Part shown: positions 15,446-61,064 of the stretch, one piece after another
Layout: the number at the start of each line of letters is the position of its first letter
Numbering within the stretch: position 1 is the stretch's first letter
The notes under the pieces: generated by a model
Seen by the model: the letters and a program-made list of their open reading frames with translations, nothing else
The model's database searches: none
What the model was told of the DNA's origin: nothing
Source: Oribacterium sp. oral taxon 102
GTDB taxonomy: Bacteria; Bacillota; Clostridia; Lachnospirales; Lachnospiraceae
Length of the DNA stretch: 64,000 bases
Assembly (NCBI RefSeq): GCF_013394775.1
Contig: NZ_JABXYT010000001.1
Span: 324,501-388,500 of the forward strand
Direction: 5' to 3'
Made by a program: the position numbers and the translations under genes

Positions 15446-18211
15446 CTATCCCTTGTCCGTACGGTATCGTTTTTTCCAAAGCAGGCTCACTGCAAGGAAT
15501 ACAGCGGACAGCAGCATGACGAAGAAATCTGCGGGGATATGTGAAGCATCCGAGGTATGCATCTTCCTGCTTGCACCCCTGACGTCAGGAGAAATCGACG
15601 GCCCCGCTGTCTCCTGCGGTCTGTCTGCACCGAGAAGCTCCTGCTTCAGTACAGACGGAGGAACAGGGCGATTTGCTCCCTTATGCGATCCGCCGCCACC
15701 GCCACCGCCTGAATGATGATCTGACGGGATATCGGACGGGGTCGGGATATCGGACGGGGTCGGGATATTCGACGGGGTCGGAATATTCGACGGGGTCGGC
15801 GGGTCAGACGGAACCGGGGGCTTCGGCGGATCCGGCTGCTTCGTATTGGTGATGGTGAAGCCATCCTCCATGCTTCCTGTTACAGCTCCGATATAGCCGG
15901 CTGCCGGCTCCTCCCGCACTGTATAACGAATCTCACTCCCGCTCGCGGTATACTTCCGCAGATTTCCGAAGCTTCCGCTCCAGCCGCCGGCGGCATTCAG
16001 TTCAATGCTGTCTCCGGTGGGCTCCTCATTCCGAAGGAGATACACTCTCACGAGATCCAATGCCGCGCCGACCCAGCTCTTTTTCACCTTGACAGAAACC
16101 TTGATCGGCTCATCGGTGATGGTTTGCAGCGCTCCGCCGTCCGAGGAAACCGTCAGGGTAAACTCCTCCTCATTCAGATGATATCCTGAGGGAGGGGTTT
16201 TCTCCTTTACCTTATAGTTTCCCTGCGGCAGCACATCCGAGGTTACGGTACCGTCTGCACCGGTGGTCAGCTCGAAGCTCGTCCCGTCCGGCCTGGTTAC
16301 GGTAAATACAGCACCCTCGAGAGGAATACTGTGCTCCTCCGCATCGACCTTTGTCAGCTTGATCCTGCTGGCGAGACTTCCATCCGCGTTTCCGCCTGCA
16401 TCTGCAGCTTTGAACTTTGCACTTTTTTTAACCTCTATATCATTATCCGCTGTCAGCACAGCATTATTCTGCTGCACCCGGCCGTTCTCCAGCGTCGTCC
16501 GATACATAAGTATATAGCTTTGCGTCCCGATATCCCCCAGCGTAAGCGTGAACGATTTTCCATCCGGAGAGAGCACAAGCTTATCGGAAATATCGACAAC
16601 CTCTCCCCAGCTCGCTATAGAGGCATCCTCCCTGTACACGACCTTCTGCAGCTTGAACTGCTCCGTCGTTTGCACTTCCGGGAGGGAGGAGGGGGGGAGG
16701 TAGTGTCCGTTGTTTGTCTGCAGCGCATCTTTGATTACGACATTTTTAAGGTTCTTCCCCTCCTGGTTGATCCGCATGACCCATTTCACGACTCCGGGAT
16801 TCCCCTTCAGATTCTCTCCCCATTTCGCCAGAATATCCTTTACCGGAGGATTCGGCTTGACGATAACAGAGGGCACCGTTGAAGGATCCGCCGGCACAAT
16901 GCCGCCGTTCACCTTAAGCTCAATCTTGTGGGTTTCATTTACCTTGATTGCCTGCTGGTTAAAGTAGGCTTTCAGATGCATATTACCCTTAAGGTCATAT
17001 TTATTATTCGCATCCTCAAGAAAAACCACATGGATATTCCCGCCGCCGGATGTCGCAGATAGATTATTCCGAGTCACACTTGCTCGTGCGATGGCATGCC
17101 CATCCTTATCCAGAAGGTCGAAATCTCCGATGGTTGCGCCATTGGTCAGATTCACCTCCCTGGGGATCTCCACATCGAAGAAATCCCCCGTATGAACCGT
17201 CTCCGGCACCTCCCAGTCTATGTTCAGGCTGAACCCGGCTCCGATCGTCAGCTCCGTTACAGGATCCTTATTCTCCCAGTCCCGAAGCTCAAATTTCGTG
17301 ATCACGGCATTTACGCTCCTGGGCGCGCCCAGCGGCAGCCTCTTCGGCACCGTCAGCGCATAGGGAGAGAATGCGGATACATAAGCTGTCAGCGTGAGAC
17401 TTTCCGCGTCCTCCTCTACCGGAATCGTCTCGACCTCCTCGGGTGCGTCGCCGAAATGATACAGCGTCAGCGCTCCCGCTTCCCTTGCTCTCGCAAGAAA
17501 TGCGGAGCCGGCAGCAAGCGTAAATGTGAGCCTGACATCCTTTTCCGGCTGGACATTTTCTCCGTTTGCGTCAGTGAAGCTGATATCAAAGCCCAAAAGC
17601 TCTGCCTCGGAAAGTCCCGCCCTCTCGGAGAGCTGCTCTGAAAGCGTCTCCTTTTCTGTGCGGTTCAGCGCAGCAATCCGCGGGCTCGTCCCCTCCGGGA
17701 AGCTTCCCTCCGGTGCCATAAGGGAAAGCGTCACACCTTCCTCTGTCTTTTCTCCGGTGATCGGCTCTGTATTCTGCGGCACTGCATTGCCCTGTGTGGA
17801 AGCATCCGCCGCAGTTTGTAGCGGGGTTGCCTCCGGAAGTGCGGAGCCCTCTGCAATCAAAGCCGCTGCAGCTGTCTCCTGCTCCGTACTGTCCTGCTTC
17901 TTTTCGGAATTCTCCTCATTTTCACAGGTCGGCTGCTCCGATTCTGTACTTTTTGACTGTTCCGTCTGCTCTGTATATTGCACAAGAGTGGTTTGCGCCT
18001 GCCCGTCCCCGCTTTGTTTTTCAGCTGCTGTGCCCTGCTCCGCTGCAGCCGACTCCTTCGGCTGAGAGGCCTGCTCCCTCGCCGCAGCCTGCACCACCTC
18101 CGCTTTCTCATCCGCGATCGCGGCCGTCGTGCTCTGCAGCATAAGTCCTGCCGCAAGTGTAACCGTCATCAGCCAGGCAAAAAACCTGTTTCGCCTCTTC
18201 TGTCTCTTCAA
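15446..18211 (-). CDS. Large surface protein with Cna-B/SpaA-like repeats and a C-terminal membrane anchor
   Basis: Putative adhesin or pilin-like wall protein, 921 aa. The best start is TTG at 18211, with AAGGAGG six bases upstream; a TTG nine codons earlier has no ribosome site. Order: basic signal peptide (KRQKRRNRFFAWLM..); a Glu/Gln/Ala/Thr-rich segment; an Ig-like collagen-binding-type region; a SpaA/prealbumin-like domain with LEGAVFTVTRPDGTSFELTT; and a Cna-B domain with YTVREEPAAGYIGAV. A Pro-rich stalk of tandem IPTPS(N/D) hexapeptides and a Gly run follow, then a hydrophobic segment with a basic tail (FFVMLLSAVFLAVSLLWKKR). No LPXTG motif is present, so sortase anchoring is uncertain. 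Lys-Asn isopeptide bonds are likely from the folds. Confidence 0.82.
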   Translation of the reverse strand: MKRQKRRNRFFAWLMTVTLAAGLMLQSTTAAIADEKAEVVQAAAREQASQPKESAAAEQGTAAEKQSGDGQAQTTLVQYTEQTEQSKSTESEQPTCENEENSEKKQDSTEQETAAAALIAEGSALPEATPLQTAADASTQGNAVPQNTEPITGEKTEEGVTLSLMAPEGSFPEGTSPRIAALNRTEKETLSEQLSERAGLSEAELLGFDISFTDANGENVQPEKDVRLTFTLAAGSAFLARAREAGALTLYHFGDAPEEVETIPVEEDAESLTLTAYVSAFSPYALTVPKRLPLGAPRSVNAVITKFELRDWENKDPVTELTIGAGFSLNIDWEVPETVHTGDFFDVEIPREVNLTNGATIGDFDLLDKDGHAIARASVTRNNLSATSGGGNIHVVFLEDANNKYDLKGNMHLKAYFNQQAIKVNETHKIELKVNGGIVPADPSTVPSVIVKPNPPVKDILAKWGENLKGNPGVVKWVMRINQEGKNLKNVVIKDALQTNNGHYLPPSSLPEVQTTEQFKLQKVVYREDASIASWGEVVDISDKLVLSPDGKSFTLTLGDIGTQSYILMYRTTLENGRVQQNNAVLTADNDIEVKKSAKFKAADAGGNADGSLASRIKLTKVDAEEHSIPLEGAVFTVTRPDGTSFELTTGADGTVTSDVLPQGNYKVKEKTPPSGYHLNEEEFTLTVSSDGGALQTITDEPIKVSVKVKKSWVGAALDLVRVYLLRNEEPTGDSIELNAAGGWSGSFGNLRKYTASGSEIRYTVREEPAAGYIGAVTGSMEDGFTITNTKQPDPPKPPVPSDPPTPSNIPTPSNIPTPSDIPTPSDIPSDHHSGGGGGGGSHKGANRPVPPSVLKQELLGADRPQETAGPSISPDVRGASRKMHTSDASHIPADFFVMLLSAVFLAVSLLWKKRYRTDKG
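15722..15810 (-). repeat. 18-base tandem repeats in the stalk of the surface protein
   Basis: About five units close to GGGATATCGGACGGGGTC, each coding a hexapeptide IPTPS(N/D). Copy number could change by slippage or recombination without breaking the frame, altering stalk length. Confidence 0.75.
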
Positions 18212-18393
18212 GGAAACCTCCTTATACTCTGTCCGCAAGCCTCTACGGTACAGTCTAAAAATTGAAAATACAGGCTCTTTTCACCGAAGCCTGTGAAATG
18301 GAATCTCTTTGCTTTATTCTATATTTTATCTGTCAAAAAGTCCAGAAACAGTATGATATAATATAAATAAAATTGATACTTTTTATTTTTTCA

Positions 18394-49348: not shown

Positions 49349-49438
49349 AATAAAATTAAGAAGGGGCTGTCGCACTAAATGAATGTACCGACCCCCAATT
49401 GTTAGACGATAATCTAACGATTGGAGGTCGGTATTTTT

Positions 49439-50017
49439 ATGGCTAAATATAGCTATGAATTTAAGAAACAGATTGTTCTAGAATACTTGAAAGGCGATGG
49501 TTCATATCTCTGTCTATCGAATAAGCACGGTATATCCAACCAGGCTCAATTACAAAAATGGGTAGCTGCCTATAAAAAGTTTGGTGATGATGGTTTAAAA
49601 AGATCACGCAATCAAAAGATTTACTCTTTCGAAGAGAAGTTTTCTATAGTAGAGTCTTATTTAACAAGTGAACTCTCATATCAGGAGCTGGCTCTACAAG
49701 TTGGGATTAATAATCCTGCGTTGGTTAATCGATGGGTCAATGAGTTTAAAGCTGCCGGGCCTGATGCTTTGAGAACGCACAAGAAAGGCCGAAAGAAAAC
49801 ATTGAGTAAATCAAAAGACAGTAAGCGAGCTCAGGAAATCCAGGAAGCTAAGGTTGATACCAGTGCAGAGCACGTCCGGGAACTAGAGGATGAACTTCTT
49901 AAGCTCCGTATTGAGAATGCTTTTTTAAAAGAACTGAGGAGGCTGCGTTTAGTGGACAAAGCAAAAATGAGAGATGCGCACGGATCATCTTCAGTCTCCG
50001 AAGACAGTTCAAACTGA
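49439..50017 (+). CDS. IS3-family transposase OrfA (copy 2)
   Basis: Same 192-aa protein as in copy 1: two helix-turn-helix domains and a C-terminal coiled coil, with the same hairpin-masked GGAGGT before the ATG and the same T TTT TTA slippery site. Without an intact orfB it cannot make a full transposase, but free OrfA often acts as an inhibitor in IS3 elements. Confidence 0.88.
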   Translation: MAKYSYEFKKQIVLEYLKGDGSYLCLSNKHGISNQAQLQKWVAAYKKFGDDGLKRSRNQKIYSFEEKFSIVESYLTSELSYQELALQVGINNPALVNRWVNEFKAAGPDALRTHKKGRKKTLSKSKDSKRAQEIQEAKVDTSAEHVRELEDELLKLRIENAFLKELRRLRLVDKAKMRDAHGSSSVSEDSSN

Positions 50018-50336: not shown

Positions 50337-51223
50337 TCAGCTTACGAGCTTGAGAGACTCCTCCAGTTTCTCCAGGTATTGCTCCTCATACTGACCCGGT
50401 GAGCAGTAATCACAATGACTATGGAGCCTCACTGTATTATAGAAAGTTTCAATATACTCAAATACAAGACGATAAGCATGTTGATAATCAAGTATCACAA
50501 ATCGATTGATCCATTCTCTCTCTTAATGAGTGCATGGAACGATTCGATGCATGCGTTATCCCAAGGATATCCCTTTGGGGAATAACTATTAATAAAGCTT
50601 GCAGTTGCATCTTTGAAAGCATCCGAAACATACTGTGATCCGCGATCATTGTGAAATACAAGCGGTTTGTCAACATGACGCTTTTGCTTTGCCAGATTGA
50701 CACAGTCGACAACATGCTGCGCTTCCAGGGTCGTGCTGAGGACCCAGGCGATGATTTTCCGTGAAAACAGATCCATAATACTAGTCAGGTACACAAAACC
50801 AATCACAGTAACAATATAAGTGATATCGGAAACCCATACAGCATTTGGCTCTGCCGGATTAAATTGCTGCTGCAGTATATTTTTTAATTTTGTACTGAAG
50901 TCAGAATCTATGGTTGTCCGGGTATATGGTTTTATCCATTGAGCCTTGATACCCATCTGATGCATGTAGGTGCCCACAGTCCGCTCGGAAATGGATTCAC
51001 CATCTTTATGAAGCTGCACCGTGATTTTGGGTGCCCCGTAGTTTTGATGGGATTTATCATATATTCTCTGGATTTTTTGTTTCATCGCTTCTCGACGCTT
51101 CTCTGTGTCGGAAGGGACACGCTTCTTCCAGGAAGCATAACCGGATCGTGAAACACCCAGATATTTCAGTATCCCGCTGACAGAGACCCGGTGTTTCACC
51201 GGAAATTGATGAACTTCCTCCAC
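50337..51223 (-). pseudogene. Transposase OrfB of the second IS3 element, frameshifted
   Basis: IS3-type DDE transposase: SDITYIVTVIGFVYLTSIMD (first Asp), FHNDRGSQYVSDAF (second), [13 protein letters not shown] (Glu). Directly after HALIKRE the run AAGAGAGAGAATGG shows (GA)4; removing one GA unit restores the expected ..[19 protein letters not shown].. and the frame then runs to a stop at 50337-50339. As it stands, the frame ends at 50495. The orfB frame is open upstream into orfA, with a slippery run of A residues (51280-51286 on the complementary strand) for -1 frameshifting. Confidence 0.85.
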
Positions 51224-51255
51224 GTATTCAGCAGTTGCTGTATATATGGCCAGTG

Positions 51256-51549
51256 TCAGTTTCCCAGGATACCGATGGCTTTTTTTAATACTTCAAGTGC
51301 GTCCTTTGTATCTCGTAATTCTCGCTGAAGCCTGGCGATTTCCTTTGCCTCGTCGCTGGAATAATTGCCGGCTCCGCGGGTTGGGACCTCACCATCGTTC
51401 TCCTTTGCCTTCTTGATCCAGGACTTTAACGCAGAAATACTGACATTGAGATTACTGGCTGCTGCCTGGTAAGATAGTTCCGGATGCTCCTTTTTGTAGC
51501 GAACTGCATCCTCCTTGAATTGTTGGGTATATACCGTTCCTTTTGCCAT
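51256..51549 (-). CDS. Transposase OrfA of the second IS3 element
   Basis: HTH protein of 97 aa: YTQQFKEDAVRYKKEHPELS, then YQAAASNLNVSISALKSWIK, then a coiled coil ending LEVLKKAIGILGN, typical of IS3-family OrfA. The start ATG 51549 follows AGGAGGGAAAAGAGTC. The end of the coiled coil overlaps the A7 slippery run used to enter orfB. Confidence 0.88.
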   Translation of the reverse strand: MAKGTVYTQQFKEDAVRYKKEHPELSYQAAASNLNVSISALKSWIKKAKENDGEVPTRGAGNYSSDEAKEIARLQRELRDTKDALEVLKKAIGILGN

Positions 51550-51626
51550 GACTCTTTTCCCTCCTGTTCTTTCATGGTACATGATTTATCAGGAAAAGGT
51601 CATTCTTATTTTGTACTATTTATATG

Positions 51627-52235
51627 CTAGCTCCAAATCTGCACATACTCGTACAAACCGCTCGCCGCCCAGAAGCTGTCTCGCTGATAGCGTTTGATCT
51701 GGTTAAAGGCTTCCCGGATGGCAACGCCCCGGCGTTTCAGCTCCACATGGACGAGGGGCAGACCGTTGACTAAAATTGTCATATCGTAGCGAGTATCGTG
51801 CTTCCCCTCAGATTCTTCATACTGGTTGATAACCTGCAAGCGGTTGTTGTGAATATTCTTTTTATCTATAAGCTGAATGTTCTTAGAAGTTCCATCATCC
51901 CTGCGGAGTACCTTTACATGGTCGGTCTGGATGGTACGGCTTTTCTCAATGATTCCCTCGTTGGCATTGGCAAGGGTCTCCGTAAGGAAACGCTTCCACT
52001 CGCTGTCAGTAAAGGTGTAATCGTTTAAACGCTCCAACTGCCGCCTGAGGTTAGCAATCAGACTGTTCTCATCATGGATGGTAAGGTACTCGTACCCTTG
52101 CGTAGTCAGCAGCCGGATGAACTCTTTTTCAAGAGCCGCTTCACTCTGAAAGCTGTCAGAGCGTGAGTTTTCCGGCGTATATTCAGCAACTACGGTGCTC
52201 TCATTGCTTGCGGCAATGATGTTATAAGCGCTCAT
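51627..52235 (-). pseudogene. hsdR: hsdR fragment: N-terminal about 200 codons of a type I restriction subunit
   Basis: The protein starts MSAYNIIAASNESTVVAEYT and has the HsdR N-terminal nuclease domain: FIRLLTTQGYEYL, NDYTFTDSEWKRFL, then NRLQVINQYEE, DMTILVNGLPLVHVELKRRG and IREAFNQIKRYQRDSF. The D..ELK pair is the PD-(D/E)XK catalytic signature. After YEYVQIW the sequence runs into the IS end at 51635 and stops within two codons. The helicase motor and C-terminal region (about 800 residues) are absent from the window. Without the motor, restriction by this subunit cannot work. Confidence 0.9.
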
Positions 52236-52255: not shown

Positions 52256-52806
52256 TTATTTTTGCTGAAAGGTCAGCAGTTTATCTCGGTAAAATTCGTA
52301 TTGCTTTGTTCGTGCTTCAATCTCGGCGGGCAAGCCAGAAGTCAGATCGTTGCAAAGAGCGTCAAAGCGGTCAAGAAATCCCACAATCCTTTCTTGTTCG
52401 CTGATAGACGGGAGAGGAATGGGAATACTGTTCAGATTCTTCTGATTCAGCTTTGGCTGCGCTCCACCCGAAATATATGGAGAAAGGTCGATAGAGTTCA
52501 GATAGAACTCGACATACCTTCTTGTTGCGTAACAGTCAAACTTCAACACATGGGCATGGTTGTTTACCCAGTTTTTCCCCGAAATAGAGAACGCAATCGG
52601 TGTGCTTCTCGCTACAAGGTTGTTGCCATCCTCTGATATAAGCAAGTAGTCTCCATCGAAGATATAACTGCTCACATAGTCCACAATGCCGGAAGCGCCA
52701 TAATAAGGGTATTCACCAGCTTCACGGTTTCCGCTTGTAACAGGCTTTCTCCTGCTGTCATGGTTTTCCGAAATTGCATTCAAAGTAACAGTGACATAAC
52801 CAAAAA
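52256..52806 (-). pseudogene. Detached HsdS specificity half (one target-recognition domain)
   Basis: About 175 residues: a TRD (AISENHDSRRKPVTSGNREA, YYGASGIVDYVSSYIFDGDY, ISEDGNNLVARSTPIAFSIS) and the conserved helical spacer (IPIPLPSISEQERIVGFLDR, KQYEFYRDKLLTFQQK). It has no proper start; the open frame continues upstream through TVTL into the 25-base direct repeat that borders the IS481-like element. Collapsing that element and one repeat copy puts it in frame with one of the three exit frames of the octamer tract in hsdS. So it was probably a downstream third recognition domain of that gene. Confidence 0.8.
52782..52806. repeat. 25-bp direct repeat, left copy, abutting the IS481-like element
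   Basis: Identical to 53876-53900. Each copy touches the outer base of an inverted repeat of the element, as a target-site duplication would. Core: GTAACAGTGACATAACC. Confidence 0.9.
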
Positions 52807-53875
52807 TGTAGGTTTGTCAAACATATGTTACACCCCACTGAATAAACTCTCTTAGGACGACGGCGGGGGATTTCCAGCCAAGGGGACGCATCGGAAAGTT
52901 GTTGTAATCCCTCCGGTTATACAGTTTGAGCTGCCTGGAGAAGTCCTCAAAGGAGTAGAAGGTGTGCGTGGCATAGAAACGCTCGTTGTCTTTTCGGTGA
53001 CTTCTCTCGACCTTTCCGTTATGCCTTGGGGTAAACGGTCGGATCTGCTTGTGCCGGATCCCATGCTCGGCCAGACGTTTTGGGAATAGAGTCAGGTTTG
53101 AAGAGGAATTGGCTATGAAGCGCTTTGTGAATTCCGGTCCGTTGTCCGTCTGGACGCATTCAATCGGCAGCGGAAAGGCCTTCAGCAGATGCTCCAGAAA
53201 AGCAGCGGATGTGTAGGTATTATGCTCATCAAAGGACTCCACAAAACGCCAGCGGGAGTATTCATCGATCGCCGTGTACTGGTAGAATTTCTGCCCTTTG
53301 GCTTTGTTAACCAGACAGACTGCCGGAACGTATTTTACATCAATTTGGAACCGCTGGCCGGGATAGAGCATTTGCTCGTAGGGCTTAGGTACATACTTAG
53401 GGTTCTGCGGCTTGACTGCCATGATTCCCTGGCGCCTGAGAACGCGATAAAGGCCGGTAACAGAGCGTTTGTAGCCGCGCTGCATGAGCTTTACCCAGAA
53501 GGTGACAAGGCCGGCGCTTTGGTTCCTGCGGCGCATGTCGGAGATGAGCTTCAACTCCTCCGGGGTATGCTGGTTGGGATGACTGTGGGGGCGCCTGGAT
53601 CGGTAACTGAGAGACTCCCAGGAGCCGTCATAGCGTTTCATCCAGCGGTAGATAAACTGTCGGTTAACGCGATAACGGACCGCAGCTTTGGTGACACCAT
53701 GTTTTTGTGCGTAACGGATAAGAGATAGCCTAAAGCGCATATCCTGTGTTATAGTAGCCACAACGGAAGACCTCCTTATGTTTGGATTTGTTTGTGGTGA
53801 ACTAACTTTAACACAAGACAGGCTCTTCCGTTTTTTTATTTAGTTGTGATGTAACACATGTATTGTAATCCTACA
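52807..53875 (-). mobile_element. IS481-like insertion element in the hsdS region
   Basis: 1069 bp. The ends are imperfect inverted repeats starting TGTAGG on both sides and sharing ACAT(A/G)TGTTACA inward (left 52807-52833, right 53849-53875). It contains one transposase gene on the minus strand. Exact 25-bp direct repeats flank it. Confidence 0.85.
52817..53761 (-). CDS. DDE transposase, IS481-like
   Basis: Single-frame transposase, 314 aa. N-terminal HTH (RYAQKHGVTKAAVRYRVNRQ, FIYRWMKRYDG) and a second one (ELKLISDMRRRNQSAGLVTF). Catalytic rve core: first Asp in FQIDVKYVPAV, second in CVQTDNGPEF, Glu in RHNGKVERSHRKDNE. The coding end reaches into the left terminal repeat. No stop or frameshift, so the element may be functional. 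Confidence 0.9.
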   Translation of the reverse strand: MATITQDMRFRLSLIRYAQKHGVTKAAVRYRVNRQFIYRWMKRYDGSWESLSYRSRRPHSHPNQHTPEELKLISDMRRRNQSAGLVTFWVKLMQRGYKRSVTGLYRVLRRQGIMAVKPQNPKYVPKPYEQMLYPGQRFQIDVKYVPAVCLVNKAKGQKFYQYTAIDEYSRWRFVESFDEHNTYTSAAFLEHLLKAFPLPIECVQTDNGPEFTKRFIANSSSNLTLFPKRLAEHGIRHKQIRPFTPRHNGKVERSHRKDNERFYATHTFYSFEDFSRQLKLYNRRDYNNFPMRPLGWKSPAVVLREFIQWGVTYV

Positions 53876-53900
53876 AAAGTAACAGTGACATAACCAAAAA
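53876..53900. repeat. 25-bp direct repeat, right copy
   Basis: Identical to 52782-52806 and directly adjacent to the right terminal repeat of the IS481-like element. Confidence 0.9.
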
Positions 53901-53918
53901 CATATTGACACAGCCGAA

Positions 53919-55367
53919 TCAGCGCATTATAATTGTCTGTTTGTCTGTTTGTCTGTTTGTCTGTTTGTCTGTTTGTCTGTTTGTCTGTTTGTCTGTTTGT
54001 CTGTTTGTCTGTTTGTCTGTTTGTCTGTTTGTCTGTTTGTCTGTTTGTCTGTTTGTCTGTTTGTCTGTTTGTCTGTTTGTCTGTTTGTCTGTTTGTCTGT
54101 TTGTCTGTTTGTCTGTTTGTCTGTTTGTCTGTTTGTCTGTTTGTCTGTTTGTCTGTTTGTCTGTTTGTCTGTTTGTCTGTTTGTCTGTTTGTCTGTTTGT
54201 CTGTTTGTCTGTTTGTCTGTTTGTTAAGATTGTCTTGCCAGTTGCGGCGTAAGTCAAGAGGGCATCACGATAGAACTCATACTGCTTTTGTCTTGCTTCG
54301 ATCTCGGCAGGGAGACCGATTTTCAGGTCAGAACAGATAGCATCGAAGTTGTCGAGAACATTGACAATACGGTTTTGAATTTCAAGCGGCGGAACAGGTA
54401 TCTGTATCGTATCAAAGCTCTTTTGATTCAAATTGTTCCTATCACTTATAGTCATTGACGCAATATCTTGTTTGCATTTATGGGAATTCAGATAATGACA
54501 AAGGAAATATGGATTAACCCGTGCAGTATCCTTGATTCTCGTCGTTATTGTAGTAAACCCAATTGCACCATCGTATTCATCATCAATTACAGCCGATGTC
54601 CCAACATCACCTGTATGGACGGTTATAATATCGCCCTTACGCAAAATCTTCTTCTTGTTTTTCTGTGCAAACTCCTTGCTAATATATTCGACAGTTTTCA
54701 GTACAATTTTATTCTGTTGAATATCAGAATTGTGCAAAAGAATTACGCCGTTTTCTCTTTTGTGCTGACTGACAGAAGTAGCAAGTCCTATGCTTGTCTC
54801 AGCTATATCAGAAATGGTAAACAGCTCGACATCATAGCTGTATGTCAGCAGCTTGTCCCGATAAAACTCATACTGCTTCTTTCTCGCTGTAAGCTCCGTG
54901 AAATTGTCCAGAATACGGACAATTTCACTCTGCACAGGCAGAGGGGGAACGGGGATTTCAAGTTGCTCAATTGATGCCCTTGACAATCTTGGGATACTGG
55001 CTTTTCGAACTCTCGATTTAATTTGTGGCTGAATCCTTAGAAGCGCATGATACAGGTATCTACTGGAAATATCTTCTCTGCATACCATTGGATAGCAGTC
55101 ATCAGCAGCCCAAAATTTTACGGAACTGAAGCCAATTTCGCCAGCCGCACCTGCCCCAATAACAAAGGCGGTATTTTCTGGGTAATTATAATCCGTATGG
55201 TATCCAAGAGGGGTCATGCTGTTTTAAAACACGGGATAGCCACAGTCGTTTGAAAGTTGATCTCGAACCAGTCTTTTCCCCCGTTCGATTGAAACCGCTA
55301 CGCCCAGCTTTTTATACTCCACCCCATCCGGGCAGTATTGCTGAATCAGTTCATCCAGCTTACTCAT
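53919..55367 (-). pseudogene. hsdS: HsdS type I specificity subunit with a stop at codon 48 and a 3' octamer tract
   Basis: The natural start is ATG 55367, overlapping the rhuM-like stop: MSKLDELIQQYCPDGVEYKK, a standard HsdS opening. Codon 48 is TAA (55224-55226) in ..GYPVF-stop-NSMTPLGYHTDY, where a Gln codon would complete the usual sequence. The next ATG (codon 51, 55217) could allow a shortened product. After the stop the frame holds TRD1, spacer ARKKQYEFYRDKLLTY, TRD2 (IAETSIGLATSVSQHKRENG) and spacer ARQKQYEFYRDALLTY. It then runs through 36 octamers, coding QTDKQTNR over and over, and ends QTIIMR. TRD1 start and function are therefore doubtful. Confidence 0.88.
53933..54224. repeat. 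Simple sequence repeat: 36.5 copies of TTGTCTGT
   Basis: Uninterrupted octamer array, 288 bases for 36 full units plus TTGT, reading ACAGACAA on the coding strand of hsdS. Since 8 is not a multiple of 3, each gained or lost unit changes the exit frame. All three frames are open inside the array and encode the same eight-residue cycle. Confidence 0.97.
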
Positions 55368-56458
55368 TTGTCCTCACCATCCTTCCCGGTTTCTGTTTCA
55401 ATCGCTTCCGGCAGGCTCTGCGCTGCTTCTTCCAGTAATATCCTGTCGAAGTCGCTTTGATACAGCTGATCCTGCACGATGCGATACTTTTCAAACTCGC
55501 TCAGGGCGTGAGCCTTGGCAAGCTCTGCGGATATCTTTCCGGCATCCTGCAAAACCTCTCTGTCCCACACGGTGAGAAAGCCATCGAGCCGCTTCTCCCA
55601 ATCTGCCATTGTCATCGGAATGTGCCGCTCTGCCTGTGCTTCTGCCAGATCCAGATATGCCGAAACAATGCGTCCCAACTGGGAAAGCTCCTTTTCGGTC
55701 AAGTAGTTTTTCGCTACCACAACATCATAGGCATGAATTTTGCTTTTTGGCGAGCCGTCCCATGTGGTAAGCCCCATGTGTTCCTTTCCTGCATCTGCTT
55801 GGTTGTAGATAACCTCGGCTGCTGTTTGCCCATGAACACTGTAATGCAATTTGTTTTGCACCGCTGCAAAAAAGCGTTTTGTAGCCGCTGCAGAAGGGTC
55901 ATAGTCCAAAGCTGTGGCATAAATATCGGTGATTTTCTGGTAGAATTTTCGTTCCGAAAGACGAATCTCACGGATTTTTTCCAGCTGCTTTTCAAAATAT
56001 TCTTTTGTCAGCACTGTTCCACCATTTTTCAGACGGTTATCATCCATAACCCAGCCTTGAATGGTGTAATCTTTTACAATATAGTTGACCCATTTTCTAA
56101 ACTGCACCGCTCGCTCGTTATTCACCTTGAAGCCAACCGAAATAATCATTTGCAGATTATAATGGTTTACTTCACGAGCAACCTCACGGGAACCTTCCGT
56201 TTGAACTATCCGATATTTTCGGATAGTTGCCGATTGTTCCAATTCTGAATCAGAATATATTTTTTTAATATGGTCATTGATGGTTCGTACATCCACATCA
56301 TACAAAGCGGCCATCATTTTTTGCGTCAGCCAGATGTTTTCGTTCTCGTAACGCATCTCTATGCTTTTTTCGTCTGCACCTGTGGAGGCAACAAATGTCA
56401 GATATTCCGCAGCGGAGGAACGAACGATGCTGATTTCACGCTTGTCCTTCTTCATCAT
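55364..56458 (-). CDS. RhuM-family protein within the type I R-M locus
   Basis: Protein of 364 aa of the RhuM (virulence RhuM/SPI-3) family. Features: IWLTQKMMAALYDVDVRTIN and DHIKKIYSDSELEQSATIRK (a DNA-binding-like start), HYNLQMIISVGFKVNNERAV and QFRKWVNYIVKDYTIQGWVM (family core), then a C-terminal helical region with GLTTWDGSPKSKIHAYDVVV and AKNYLTEKELSQLGRIVSAY. The start overlaps the hsdM stop (ATGA at 56455-56458) and the stop overlaps the hsdS start, so it is an integral member of the operon. RhuM genes are often found inside type I loci; their role is unknown. No damage is visible. Confidence 0.87.
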   Translation of the reverse strand: MMKKDKREISIVRSSAAEYLTFVASTGADEKSIEMRYENENIWLTQKMMAALYDVDVRTINDHIKKIYSDSELEQSATIRKYRIVQTEGSREVAREVNHYNLQMIISVGFKVNNERAVQFRKWVNYIVKDYTIQGWVMDDNRLKNGGTVLTKEYFEKQLEKIREIRLSERKFYQKITDIYATALDYDPSAAATKRFFAAVQNKLHYSVHGQTAAEVIYNQADAGKEHMGLTTWDGSPKSKIHAYDVVVAKNYLTEKELSQLGRIVSAYLDLAEAQAERHIPMTMADWEKRLDGFLTVWDREVLQDAGKISAELAKAHALSEFEKYRIVQDQLYQSDFDRILLEEAAQSLPEAIETETGKDGEDK

Positions 56459-57489
56459 CCCACCTCGATCTCTGCAATAATCTTTGCTATTTCATCACGA
56501 AGAACCTGTTCACGGGCAACGATTTTTTCGATCTCAGCGTTAAGCTCCACAATGTCGATTTTCTCTCTGTTGTCCTCGGCTTCCACATAGGTGGAAACAG
56601 AGAGATTATAATCATTGTCCGCAATTTCTTCATAGCCTGCCAGATGAGAGAAGTGTGCTTCCTCGGATCGATTGGCAAAGGTGTCCACGATTCTTTCGAT
56701 GTTCGCCTGTGTCAGCTTGTTGTTGTTCGTTACCTTGATACACTCAGCGGAAGCGTCAATAAAAAGGGTTTTGTTGTCGGCTTTGCCTTTTTTCAGCACC
56801 ATAATGCAGGTCGCAATAGAAGTTCCAAAGAACAGATTGCTCGGCAGTTGGATAATGCAATCAATAAAGTTGTTGTCGATCAGATACTTTCTGATTTTCT
56901 GTTCTGCACCGCCACGGTACATAATGCCGGGGAAGCAGACGATTGCTGCTGTGCCGCCTGTTGCCAGCCATGAAAGGGAGTGCATGATAAAGGCAAGGTC
57001 GGCTTTAGACTTCGGTGCGAGAACGCCAGCCGGAGAAAAACGAGGAACGTTAATCAGCAGAGGGTTGTCATCGCCAGCCCACTTGATGGAATAGGGAGGG
57101 TTGGAAACGATCAGCTCGAACGGTTCATCGTCCCAATGCTGCGGTGCGGTCAATGTATCCTCACAGGCAATGTCAAACTTATCAAAGCCAACATCATGCA
57201 GGAACATATTGATACGGCAAAGGTTGTAAGTAGTGATATTGATTTCCTGCCCATAAAAGCCATTTCTAACGGCATCTCTGCCTAAAACTTTCTCTGCTTT
57301 CAGAAGCAGGGAGCCAGAGCCGCAGGCGGGGTCTATCAAGACGTTATCTTTGATACAAAGGTTATGTGCGGAATCAGCCCTGAAACCGCGCACTTTCTGG
57401 GCTTTTCTGCGTTTTGGCACACCGAAAGAGGTGCGTCTTTCCGGTATGAAATTGTAAGCTGTTGCTGTTGCTGTGCTCAAAAGCGACAC
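56455..57489 (-). pseudogene. hsdM: hsdM, 5'-truncated type I DNA methyltransferase
   Basis: N6-adenine methyltransferase subunit. Motif I DPACGSGSLLL and the catalytic IVSNPPYSIKW are present, as is the C-terminal helix region (AEIEKIVAREQVLRDEIAKI). But motif I lies only about 50 residues from the first possible start, where HsdM normally has some 150-200 residues before it. The first 46 residues here (MSLLSTATATAYNFIPERRT..) do not resemble HsdM. The N-terminal helical domain that contacts HsdS is missing, so activity is unlikely. GTG 57489 follows GAAAGGG. The break lies near 57350-57490. Confidence 0.82.
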
Positions 57490-59564: not shown

Positions 59565-61064
59565 TTATTCCGATACATTCAGAATATACTTCCCTTTTCC
59601 TTTTCCTTGTATAGCTTTAATCAGACCATTTTCCTCCATCATCTTCAAAACCAGCCTCGCTTTTGTGGTCTGGCAGGAAAGAATCCTCATCACCTCTTTT
59701 GACGAGATCACCTGCAGGATATCCACTTCTTCGATAATCAGCCCTGCATCCGCAGCGTCCTTAGAAGATACCTGACCTTCTATTTCTCTCTTTTTCATTA
59801 TCTCAATCAACGCGTCCTTTCCTTGAATCGACGCGTCGTTTCTCTCAATCGACGCGTTTTCAGCCTGAATCGACGCAGCATCCGTCGATTTACCTTCAAA
59901 GGACGCGCTCATCACCGTCGTTTTGAGGATGAAAGTGCTGTTGTTGAAGACCGGATCGGGCAAACCGACTGCCTCCAGTTCCTTGCACATCCTGTCAACG
60001 CCCTCGCCGTATTCCTTCACATATCCATAATCCTTCAGGAATGCGGCAATCTTCGGATTCCGGGAGAAGTGGGTGTAACGGATATTTTCTTTCTTCACCA
60101 TACCGGCAAAGGTACCAGGGCTGTCCACTTCCAGCCGGTCATCGAACATCTTGATCTGAATATCCGTGCCCTTGATGGCATAGTCGCGGTGGGTAGCTGC
60201 GTTAACCACGATCTCGGTGCGGACGAACTCGCTGTATTCTTCCTCAGTGACGAAAATGCCATCATGACCAAGATAGGTCTTCTCCTTCATCTGGATCTTG
60301 ATGAAATCGACAGCTTTTTCCACCTGCTCCAGGATACGACCTTCAAAGATTACGTCCTTGACCACGTTCATATCCTTGCCCACCTTAGCCTCTGTGCCGT
60401 CATAGCGAATAAAACGGATAAACGCACGAGGGAAGAACAGCTGTGGATTTTTGCCAAACAGCAGGATTGCAGCCACGGAAACCTGATCCCTGCCATCCTT
60501 CACGGTGACGAACTTCTTATTCTCCCGGACATATTCCTCCGGTGACTTGCTATAGCCAATCCGCCTGCAGTAGCTCCGCACAAAGTCCAGGTCGAGATCG
60601 TCGATGGAAGCATCCGCCACAGGCTCGTCCTCGTAATATCGCACACCCTTAGCGTACATCAGCGTCATGCGGTCATTGAAATCCAGCTTCTTGCTTTTAT
60701 CCCCGACACGAAGGAATGCCTCGTCCGCCTGATTGGCATGGAGAAGCGGACTGGCTTCAATATGCATCAGAAGCACATGATCCGGCTGTCCTTTGTAGTT
60801 TGTGCATTCCACCATCTCCGTGGTTATCGGAACCGTCGGATTGCAGAAATCTATCGGTGTCCGCAGGATCTCGTTCAGCTGCTCCTCATGGTAATCAACG
60901 CCTTCAATCCTGCGATGCTTGTCTGAGATGCCGATGGCAATCGTGCCGCCGTCCGCATTGGCAAAAGCACAGATGGTATCCGACAGATCTGCCGGTTTGA
61001 TCTGTATGCTCTTGCGGTCAAATATTTGCTTCTCGTTCTTTTTAAGAACTTCATCTATCGTCAT
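59565..61064 (-). CDS. AlbA_2 (Schlafen-like) ATP-binding protein
   Basis: Protein of 499 aa. Residues about 15-125 are an AlbA_2/Schlafen domain: FDRKSIQIKPADLSDTICAF, ANADGGTIAIGISD and EEQLNEILRTPIDFCNPTVP. The middle part is the HATPase-like C-terminal region seen in these proteins (RTEIVVNAATHRDYAIKGTD, KMFDDRLEVDSPGTF, then GYVKEYGEGVDRMCKELEAV). Residues about 395-420 consist of heptad-like units ASIQAEN-ASIERND-ASIQGKD from a 21-base tandem repeat. A C-terminal winged helix follows (ISSKEVMRILSCQTTKARLV). ATG 61064 follows AGGTGACGGCTA. Such proteins are reported as regulators and as parts of defence islands. Confidence 0.83.
   Translation of the reverse strand: MTIDEVLKKNEKQIFDRKSIQIKPADLSDTICAFANADGGTIAIGISDKHRRIEGVDYHEEQLNEILRTPIDFCNPTVPITTEMVECTNYKGQPDHVLLMHIEASPLLHANQADEAFLRVGDKSKKLDFNDRMTLMYAKGVRYYEDEPVADASIDDLDLDFVRSYCRRIGYSKSPEEYVRENKKFVTVKDGRDQVSVAAILLFGKNPQLFFPRAFIRFIRYDGTEAKVGKDMNVVKDVIFEGRILEQVEKAVDFIKIQMKEKTYLGHDGIFVTEEEYSEFVRTEIVVNAATHRDYAIKGTDIQIKMFDDRLEVDSPGTFAGMVKKENIRYTHFSRNPKIAAFLKDYGYVKEYGEGVDRMCKELEAVGLPDPVFNNSTFILKTTVMSASFEGKSTDAASIQAENASIERNDASIQGKDALIEIMKKREIEGQVSSKDAADAGLIIEEVDILQVISSKEVMRILSCQTTKARLVLKMMEENGLIKAIQGKGKGKYILNVSE
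59804..59887 (-). repeat. Four 21-base tandem repeats within the AlbA_2 gene
   Basis: Units starting at 59804, 59825, 59846 and 59867, each with a core close to AATCGACGCG, encode a heptapeptide (D)ASIxxxx. In-frame copy changes would lengthen or shorten the linker before the winged helix. Confidence 0.8.

Follow-up and report, generated by a model that had tools for sequence, protein, structure and literature searches.

An octamer array at the end of a Type I hsdS gene of Oribacterium sp. oral taxon 102: probable fossil of a switch for a third recognition domain

What does a run of 36 identical octamers do at the 3′ end of a gene for a Type I restriction-modification specificity subunit (HsdS)? 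The question is raised by a stretch of 64,000 nucleotides from Oribacterium sp. oral taxon 102 (contig NZ_JABXYT010000001.1, positions 324,501 to 388,500), the whole of which is called the window below. The gene codes for a type IC-like HsdS, in which target recognition domains (TRDs) of the Methylase_S type are separated by helical conserved regions (CRs), and a further, detached TRD (TRD3) lies behind an insertion sequence (IS) downstream of the array. The original prediction, made from the letters alone, was that slippage in the array once toggled the fusion of this extra recognition domain, and it is supported by the arrays of relatives, their open TRD3 frames and the occurrence of both protein forms. 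We therefore regard the window as very probably containing the fossil of a phase-variable Type I hsdS gene, in which slippage toggled between a two-TRD and a three-TRD HsdS. The features concerned are as follows (ORF, open reading frame).

55227-55367, minus strand: N-terminal piece of hsdS, beginning MSKLDELIQQYCPDGVEYKKLG, in the frame of the main ORF and separated from it by a stop codon at 55224-55226
53919-55217, minus strand: main hsdS ORF of 432 aa, with the rest of TRD1, CR1, TRD2, CR2, the array and the exit QTIIMR-stop (Pfam Methylase_S, PF01420, 6.7e-39, two stretches)
53933-54224, minus strand: octamer array, coding strand (ACAGACAA)n with 36 full units, read as QTDKQTNR in all three frames
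53890-53919, minus strand: conserved linker IRLCQYVFGY directly after the array, with the stops of the other frames at 53919-53921 and 53927-53929
53876-53900, no strand: second copy of the 25-bp direct repeat AAAGTAACAGTGACATAACCAAAAA
52807-53875, minus strand: IS481-like element of 1069 bp, with a transposase ORF at 52817-53761
52782-52806, no strand: first copy of the 25-bp direct repeat AAAGTAACAGTGACATAACCAAAAA, a probable target-site duplication
52256-52806, minus strand: detached TRD3 and the conserved region at its C-terminal end; omission of the IS and one 25-bp copy brings it into frame with the linker (Pfam Methylase_S, 4.3e-25)

The predicted array of 36 octamers was recovered by Tandem Repeats Finder as a single array at 53933-54224 (period 8, 36.5 copies, 100% match) and by an exact count, which gave 36 perfect units at 53933-54220. 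Translation likewise reproduced the open frames, the peptide cycle and the three exits that had been proposed: all three frames run through the array and then leave it as QTIIMR-stop (stop at 53919-53921), as RQL-stop (stop at 53927-53929), or as DNYNALIRLCQYVFGYVTV, which runs on. The identical peptide cycle in the three frames is automatic because the unit length is not a multiple of 3. With 36 units, hsdS is read in the short frame with the exit QTIIMR-stop, which is the present frame-off state. An array inside an ORF with units of 8 bp, a length that is not a multiple of 3, is one of the marks of a repeat-mediated phase-variable gene. Outside this array, the source genome contains no place with at least three consecutive octamer units, and four consecutive units occur in only one of 397 family genomes, that of the window itself. 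The octamer as a family-wide trait was therefore rejected; other members carry other units.

The third exit was expected to continue in frame into the detached TRD, and this is indeed the case after removal of the IS and one 25-bp copy in silico: the frame passes IRLCQYVFGYVTVTLNAISENHDSRRKP and meets no stop before that of TRD3 at 52256. The element at 52807-53875 has two ends that are related inverted sequences starting with TGTAGG. Because the 25-bp repeat brackets an element with such ends, it looks like the target-site duplication of the IS481-like element. The wording "IS481-like" is right for it, as the transposase scores 219.9 bits against the NCBIfam IS481 model NF033577, whose cut-off is 224. 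Two partial IS481-like copies with the same right end and 98% identity are found elsewhere in the genome (G000:C1:646564-647143 and 1508749-1509256). The best match among solved structures, both for TRD3 (7bst_A, E 1.5e-28) and for TRD1-TRD2, is the HsdS of EcoR124II.

Among 17 genomes of the genus examined by protein search, two (G016 and G014) share the layout and lack the IS. In G016, hsdM is followed by another gene, an hsdS gene ending in a CAGA array, LIQYVFGY plus TRD3 in another frame, and hsdR, and G014 retains the array and TRD3 and has partly lost the front of hsdS. The arrays of both consist of tetramers (ACAG), and in each genome a single frame out of the three leads from the array into the third TRD without a stop, so that stops in every frame are found in neither of these IS-free relatives. 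The octamer ACAGACAA of the window may have been derived from a tetramer of this kind.

To extend the comparison, the linker was recast as a DNA pattern, and a scan of 84,980 species genomes resulted in 95 stretches, or 96 with the window. Of these, 83 including the window passed a test for the conserved regions, and one spurious pass (L052) was removed by hand, leaving 82 members. The 13 pattern matches that failed were L060, L066, L067, L071, L090, L091, L092, L097, L115, L120, L121, L126 and L128; among them, L060 appears to be a genuine member that the test failed to catch. Judged by record titles, the carriers include Lachnospiraceae, Faecalibacterium, Gemmiger, Peptoniphilus, Peptostreptococcus, Treponema and Fibrobacter, and long proteins named Fusobacterium show the variant linker IIKLFMYIFGY. 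Where the sequence leaves room to see it, an hsdR-like sequence lies downstream in 68 of 69 loci and an hsdM-like sequence upstream in 25 of 26.

A perfect tandem array was present at most 70 nt before the linker, just before TRD3, in 77 of the 82 members (window included). Two others (L046 and L105) have at most five bases in view before the linker, leaving 80 members with sequence there. The unit lengths were 4 bp in 62 arrays, 5 bp in eight, 2 bp in five, 7 bp in one and 8 bp in one, the window, and none of the 77 arrays had units of 1, 3, 6 or any other length up to 12 bp. Throughout 590,654 bases (window excluded), arrays of at least 16 bp and at least three copies occurred 70 times at this site vs. 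22 times elsewhere, and 19 of the 22 off-site arrays had a period of 12, most being frame-keeping copies of a unit like CGGAGCTTACAG. Many of these hsdS genes (L034, L035, L038, L041, L063, L103 and others) contain such an in-frame 12-bp repeat, e.g., CGGAGCTTACAG, a good distance upstream of the array that shifts the frame, and a single gene would thus combine two kinds of repeat variation. We also observed that several metagenome contigs (L043, L056, L058, L065, L077, L094, L112 and other matches at contig ends) begin or end within about 100 bases of the array, leaving the hsdS halves on separate contigs, and that L080 contains a run of N inside the array.

The frame state of TRD3 was on in 16, off in 35 and not scorable in 26 of the 77 arrays, and the three phases were represented by 16, 20 and 15 of the 51 scored ones. 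Longer stretches showed L103 to be on and L127 to be off, which gives 17 in-frame cases among 53 scorable arrays, with 24 of the 77 left unscored. This agrees with the expectation that one unit number in three would give the long form. At all 77 arrays, the two frames that miss TRD3 are closed by a stop codon no later than the I[KR]L codons of the linker. Synonymous recoding with the codon usage of TRD3 would yield such dual stops in 26.5 of 77 cases (maximum 42 in 20,000 draws) and stretches of the same length from TRD3 ORFs in 12.5 of 75, figures to be read with the common descent of the loci and the I[KR]L residues fixed by the scan pattern itself in mind. The dual stops are encoded in six different layouts within 61 distinct 15-base contexts. 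In our reading, the dual-stop exit has been selected to end the short form cleanly.

Both forms of the protein occur in nature. From two protein searches with 120 matches listed each, we classified 240 proteins, and all counts of long and short forms given here apply to the matches listed: 149 proteins were long, 79 short and 12 unclassified. The array follows the second TRD and CR2 in these long and short proteins as it does in the window, and the in-frame relatives join three TRDs in a single chain, with a conserved region after each, as in the AlphaFold2 model of P0121, which resembles a whole HsdS in residues 2-402 and a further TRD in residues 421-624; in the window, this arrangement is recovered only with the IS omitted. 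Among 23 groups identical over TRD1-TRD2-CR2, 18 vary behind CR2. Six of these include at least one protein with an unrecognised linker, and 12 vary cleanly, one of which (P0002/P0004) also differs in TRD3. Seven groups hold both long and short forms, and the array length differs between proteins that are otherwise identical over TRD1-TRD2-CR2; at the protein level, the array is thus not constant in number within the family, the array of the window itself being represented by a single genome. A further pair, with differing TRDs, comes from Faecalibacterium prausnitzii, with APC923/61-1 in frame and APC923/51-1 out of frame. One protein, P0067, appeared to be a two-TRD gene designed with the array between its TRDs, and this was rejected because its sequence starts inside CR1, making it a partial gene. 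We also do not claim that the linker derives from the N-terminus of HsdS: the two share LI[KR]xL...G by eye and are both predicted helices ahead of a TRD, but HHalign returned a probability of only 20 over 13 columns.

Among loci in which the TRD3 frame ends inside the available sequence, it is unbroken in 30 of 31 off loci and in all 15 on loci, the window being the exception. Between TRD3 sequences of 29 off loci, compared in 31 pairs at 60–98% amino-acid identity, mismatches amounted to 0.24, 0.16 and 0.55 at the first, second and third codon positions, and the third position was the most divergent in every one of the 31 pairs. A similar domain from position 1 or position 2 exists for 64 of 78 TRD3 domains, 51 of them at ≥50% identity, and P0002 and P0004 combine an identical TRD1-TRD2-CR2 with different TRD3 domains. 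The intact frames, the codon pattern, the likeness to the TRD1/TRD2 pool and the P0002/P0004 pair identify TRD3 as an exchangeable recognition domain that is translated on at least some occasions. A separate observation is that the third TRD of P0057 resembles TRD2 of the window (..ETNIGLATSV..HNSDIQ..), a TRD that has seemingly moved between positions.

The copy in the window itself is dead, with a stop in TRD1, truncated hsdM and hsdR genes and an IS before TRD3, and its switch is stuck in the short frame. The 432-aa ORF is not the whole gene: the N-terminal piece continues it in the same frame beyond the stop at 55224-55226, and relatives such as P0001 read through the equivalent position. 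The gene order is hsdM, rhuM, hsdS and hsdR, the linked hsdM and hsdR both being present as remnants. The neighbouring features are as follows.

56455-57489, minus strand: hsdM remnant, residues 47-344 of which match residues 276-573 of the G016 HsdM (81%); the 5′ part is gone
55364-56458, minus strand: RhuM-family gene between hsdM and hsdS
51627-52235, minus strand: hsdR remnant, matching within the window only about the first 209 residues of the G016 HsdR
50495-51582, minus strand: genes of an IS3-type element (orfA 51256-51582, orfB 50495-51223), directly after the hsdR remnant

Next to this element, on the opposite strand, lies an ORF of 198 aa (49421-50017) which by eye looks like an IS3-type orfA. 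Elsewhere in the window, a surface-protein-like ORF of 930 aa (15446-18238) contains a proline-rich, frame-keeping 18-bp tandem repeat near its C-terminus (15725-15799), and an ORF of 499 aa (59565-61064) contains an in-frame 21-bp repeat at 59802-59876, which reads ASIERNDASIQGKDALI.

The ancestral layout would have been TRD1-CR1-TRD2-CR2-[tandem array]-linker-TRD3-CR3, followed by hsdR. We infer that slipped-strand mispairing causes the phase changes, through gain or loss of units with a length other than a multiple of 3. In one phase of three, translation would proceed through the array into TRD3 and yield an HsdS of about 590–640 aa with three TRDs; in the other two, it would end at the stops just behind the array, yielding a complete ordinary two-TRD HsdS of about 380–470 aa. 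The long form would pair TRD3 with either TRD1 or TRD2 and most likely adds or swaps a target of methylation and restriction, by analogy with NgoAV, JHP1422 and JHP1272 (see below).

Several points weigh against this reading. It is based on comparison between strains rather than on a change of array length followed in one strain, and the genome of the window is a single one with a dead system. Long and short proteins are encoded on different contigs, and TRD3 is not visible in the sequences of the short ones. Most loci originate from metagenome-assembled or draft genomes, and the fraction of one third in frame is by itself no proof because misassembled repeat lengths would give the same fraction. 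Three of the 80 members with sequence before the linker (L062, L069 and L086) contain no perfect array. Because TRDs move between positions, the codon pattern of TRD3 may partly predate its present position, and the effect on specificity is drawn from analogy.

A first alternative accepts the switch and takes the long form to be an inactive or dominant-negative HsdS, so that the array would turn the system on and off and leave its specificity alone. AlphaFold2 gives this some room: the models of P0121 (pTM 0.48) and of P0002 (pTM 0.44, with TRD3 at low confidence) do not decide which halves pair. We nevertheless consider an inactive long form unlikely, since TRD3 has kept the character of a recognition domain and is exchanged between TRD kinds, neither of which would be required of a tail that merely inactivates, and a three-TRD HsdS of Helicobacter pylori, JHP1422, is active on two sites according to the accessible text of PMC3936762.

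Alternatively, the array might mainly switch hsdR, whose translation would be coupled to read-through of TRD3, such that frame-off cells restrict less. Of 67 loci measured, 34 indeed have the estimated hsdR start at most 27 nt from the stop of TRD3, but tight coupling is not general because the gap is 73–2451 nt in the other 33, and a mere hsdR switch does not account for the retention of TRD3 as a complete and varied recognition domain from the TRD1/TRD2 pool. As the principal role of the array, this is quite improbable; coupling to hsdR could act in addition to the specificity switch.

It is very improbable that TRD3-CR3 represents a separate half-HsdS with its own translation, behind an array that is simply an unstable junction. 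Half-HsdS subunits can dimerise and work (accessible text of PMC6158711), and in the predicted structure TRD3 and the helix ahead of it form a module of their own. However, we rejected an independent start of TRD3 because no in-frame start codon is conserved among the 82 linkers: the earliest start codon within 15 codons is an ATG in five of them, and GTG, TTG or ATG stands at the V codon of the linker in 41. Moreover, a half-HsdS would explain neither the dual stops nor the avoidance of unit lengths that are multiples of 3. Finally, neutral expansion in a decaying gene that never had a switch would fit a window copy broken in hsdM, hsdS and hsdR, the sole octamer case among the 77, and may explain the present great length of its array, but as an account of the system it is hardly credible in view of relatives that lie beside hsdR (68 of 69) and hsdM (25 of 26) with open TRD3 frames, arrays, dual stops and both protein forms.

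The switch from a two-TRD to a three-TRD HsdS has precedents in its parts. In NgoAV, a Type I system of Neisseria gonorrhoeae, a change of a polyG tract in hsdS fuses the second TRD, and GCAN8TGC is recognized vs. GCAN7STCA (accessible text of PMC9577141). Both systems thus fuse or separate a downstream recognition domain by a change of repeat length within hsdS. The polyG tract, however, toggles between one TRD (208 aa) and two, whereas in the family of the window the array of 2–8-bp units follows a complete two-TRD HsdS, toggles a third TRD and is succeeded by stops in both other frames; the arrangement of the NgoAV type, with a tract after the first TRD and half vs. full HsdS, is therefore not that of the window family. 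JHP1422/JHP1423 of H. pylori (M.Hpy99XV) includes an HsdS with three TRDs flanked by conserved regions, like the in-frame relatives of the window, and different TRD pairs methylate two sites; in contrast, its TRD2 and TRD3 are identical, and no repeat array switching TRD3 is reported in the accessible text of PMC3936762. The closest in mechanism is JHP1272 (HP1353-HP1354) of H. pylori, in which an extra C-terminal TRD is switched by a second homopolymer tract, with a change of the motif from GGWTAA to GGWCNA (same text), but this is a Type IIG single-chain enzyme rather than an HsdS, and its repeat is a homopolymer.

In HsdS of the EcoR124I/EcoDXXI type, 12-bp TAEL repeats alter the spacing between the half-sites. 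These type IC genes share with the window family the tandem repeats in hsdS, the window TRD3 being nearest to EcoR124II HsdS among solved structures and 12-bp repeats occurring elsewhere in the hsdS genes of the window family; 12-bp units keep the frame, whereas the array of the window family shifts it. Inverting hsdS loci (SpnD39III and others) likewise switch Type I specificity at random, as far as the accessible accounts go, but by recombination between inverted repeats instead of slippage. Simple sequence repeats with potential for phase variation were found in 7.9% of hsdS genes by Atack et al. 2020 (as cited in PMC7394358), and no third TRD is mentioned where this survey of Type I repeats is cited in the accessible text. 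The accessible parts of PMC3936762, PMC3077401, PMC7557576, PMC7394358, PMC13076061, PMC9577141, PMC12707154, PMC6700114, PMC12456177, PMC6241649 and PMC6158711 do not contain a repeat toggle of a third TRD. We found no description of an array toggling the third TRD of an HsdS in the open-access literature, a scope outside which lies the 2020 repeat survey, which may include members. Each element thus has a precedent, and the combination of a complete HsdS, a frame-shifting array, a dual-stop exit, a conserved linker and an exchangeable TRD3 in several phyla was not found described in that literature.

Beyond the window, it is an evenly poised proposition that the layout constitutes a general switch module of anaerobic Firmicutes, Fusobacteria, Treponema and Fibrobacter, composed of an array of 2-, 4-, 5-, 7- or 8-bp units, the dual-stop exit, a helical linker I[KR]LxQYVFGY and an exchangeable TRD cassette behind a complete HsdS. 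About one third of the cell lineages would then produce an HsdS with three TRDs, the third competing with TRD1 or TRD2 for pairing, which would give each locus two sets of methylated motifs and divide the population into epigenetic types, and the array length would set the tether of the third domain. For annotation, the family carries a warning, since frame-off genes resemble pseudogenes followed by an orphan TRD and several metagenome contigs break at the array. It also makes it testable which sites an HsdS with three TRDs recognises and whether phase-variable methylomes are in use among commensals. If the proposal is true, cells could randomly change which DNA sites get marked or cut, and gut anaerobes such as the relatives in Faecalibacterium, Gemmiger, Blautia, Peptostreptococcus and Fusobacterium would hedge their DNA marking and phage restriction without a recombinase.

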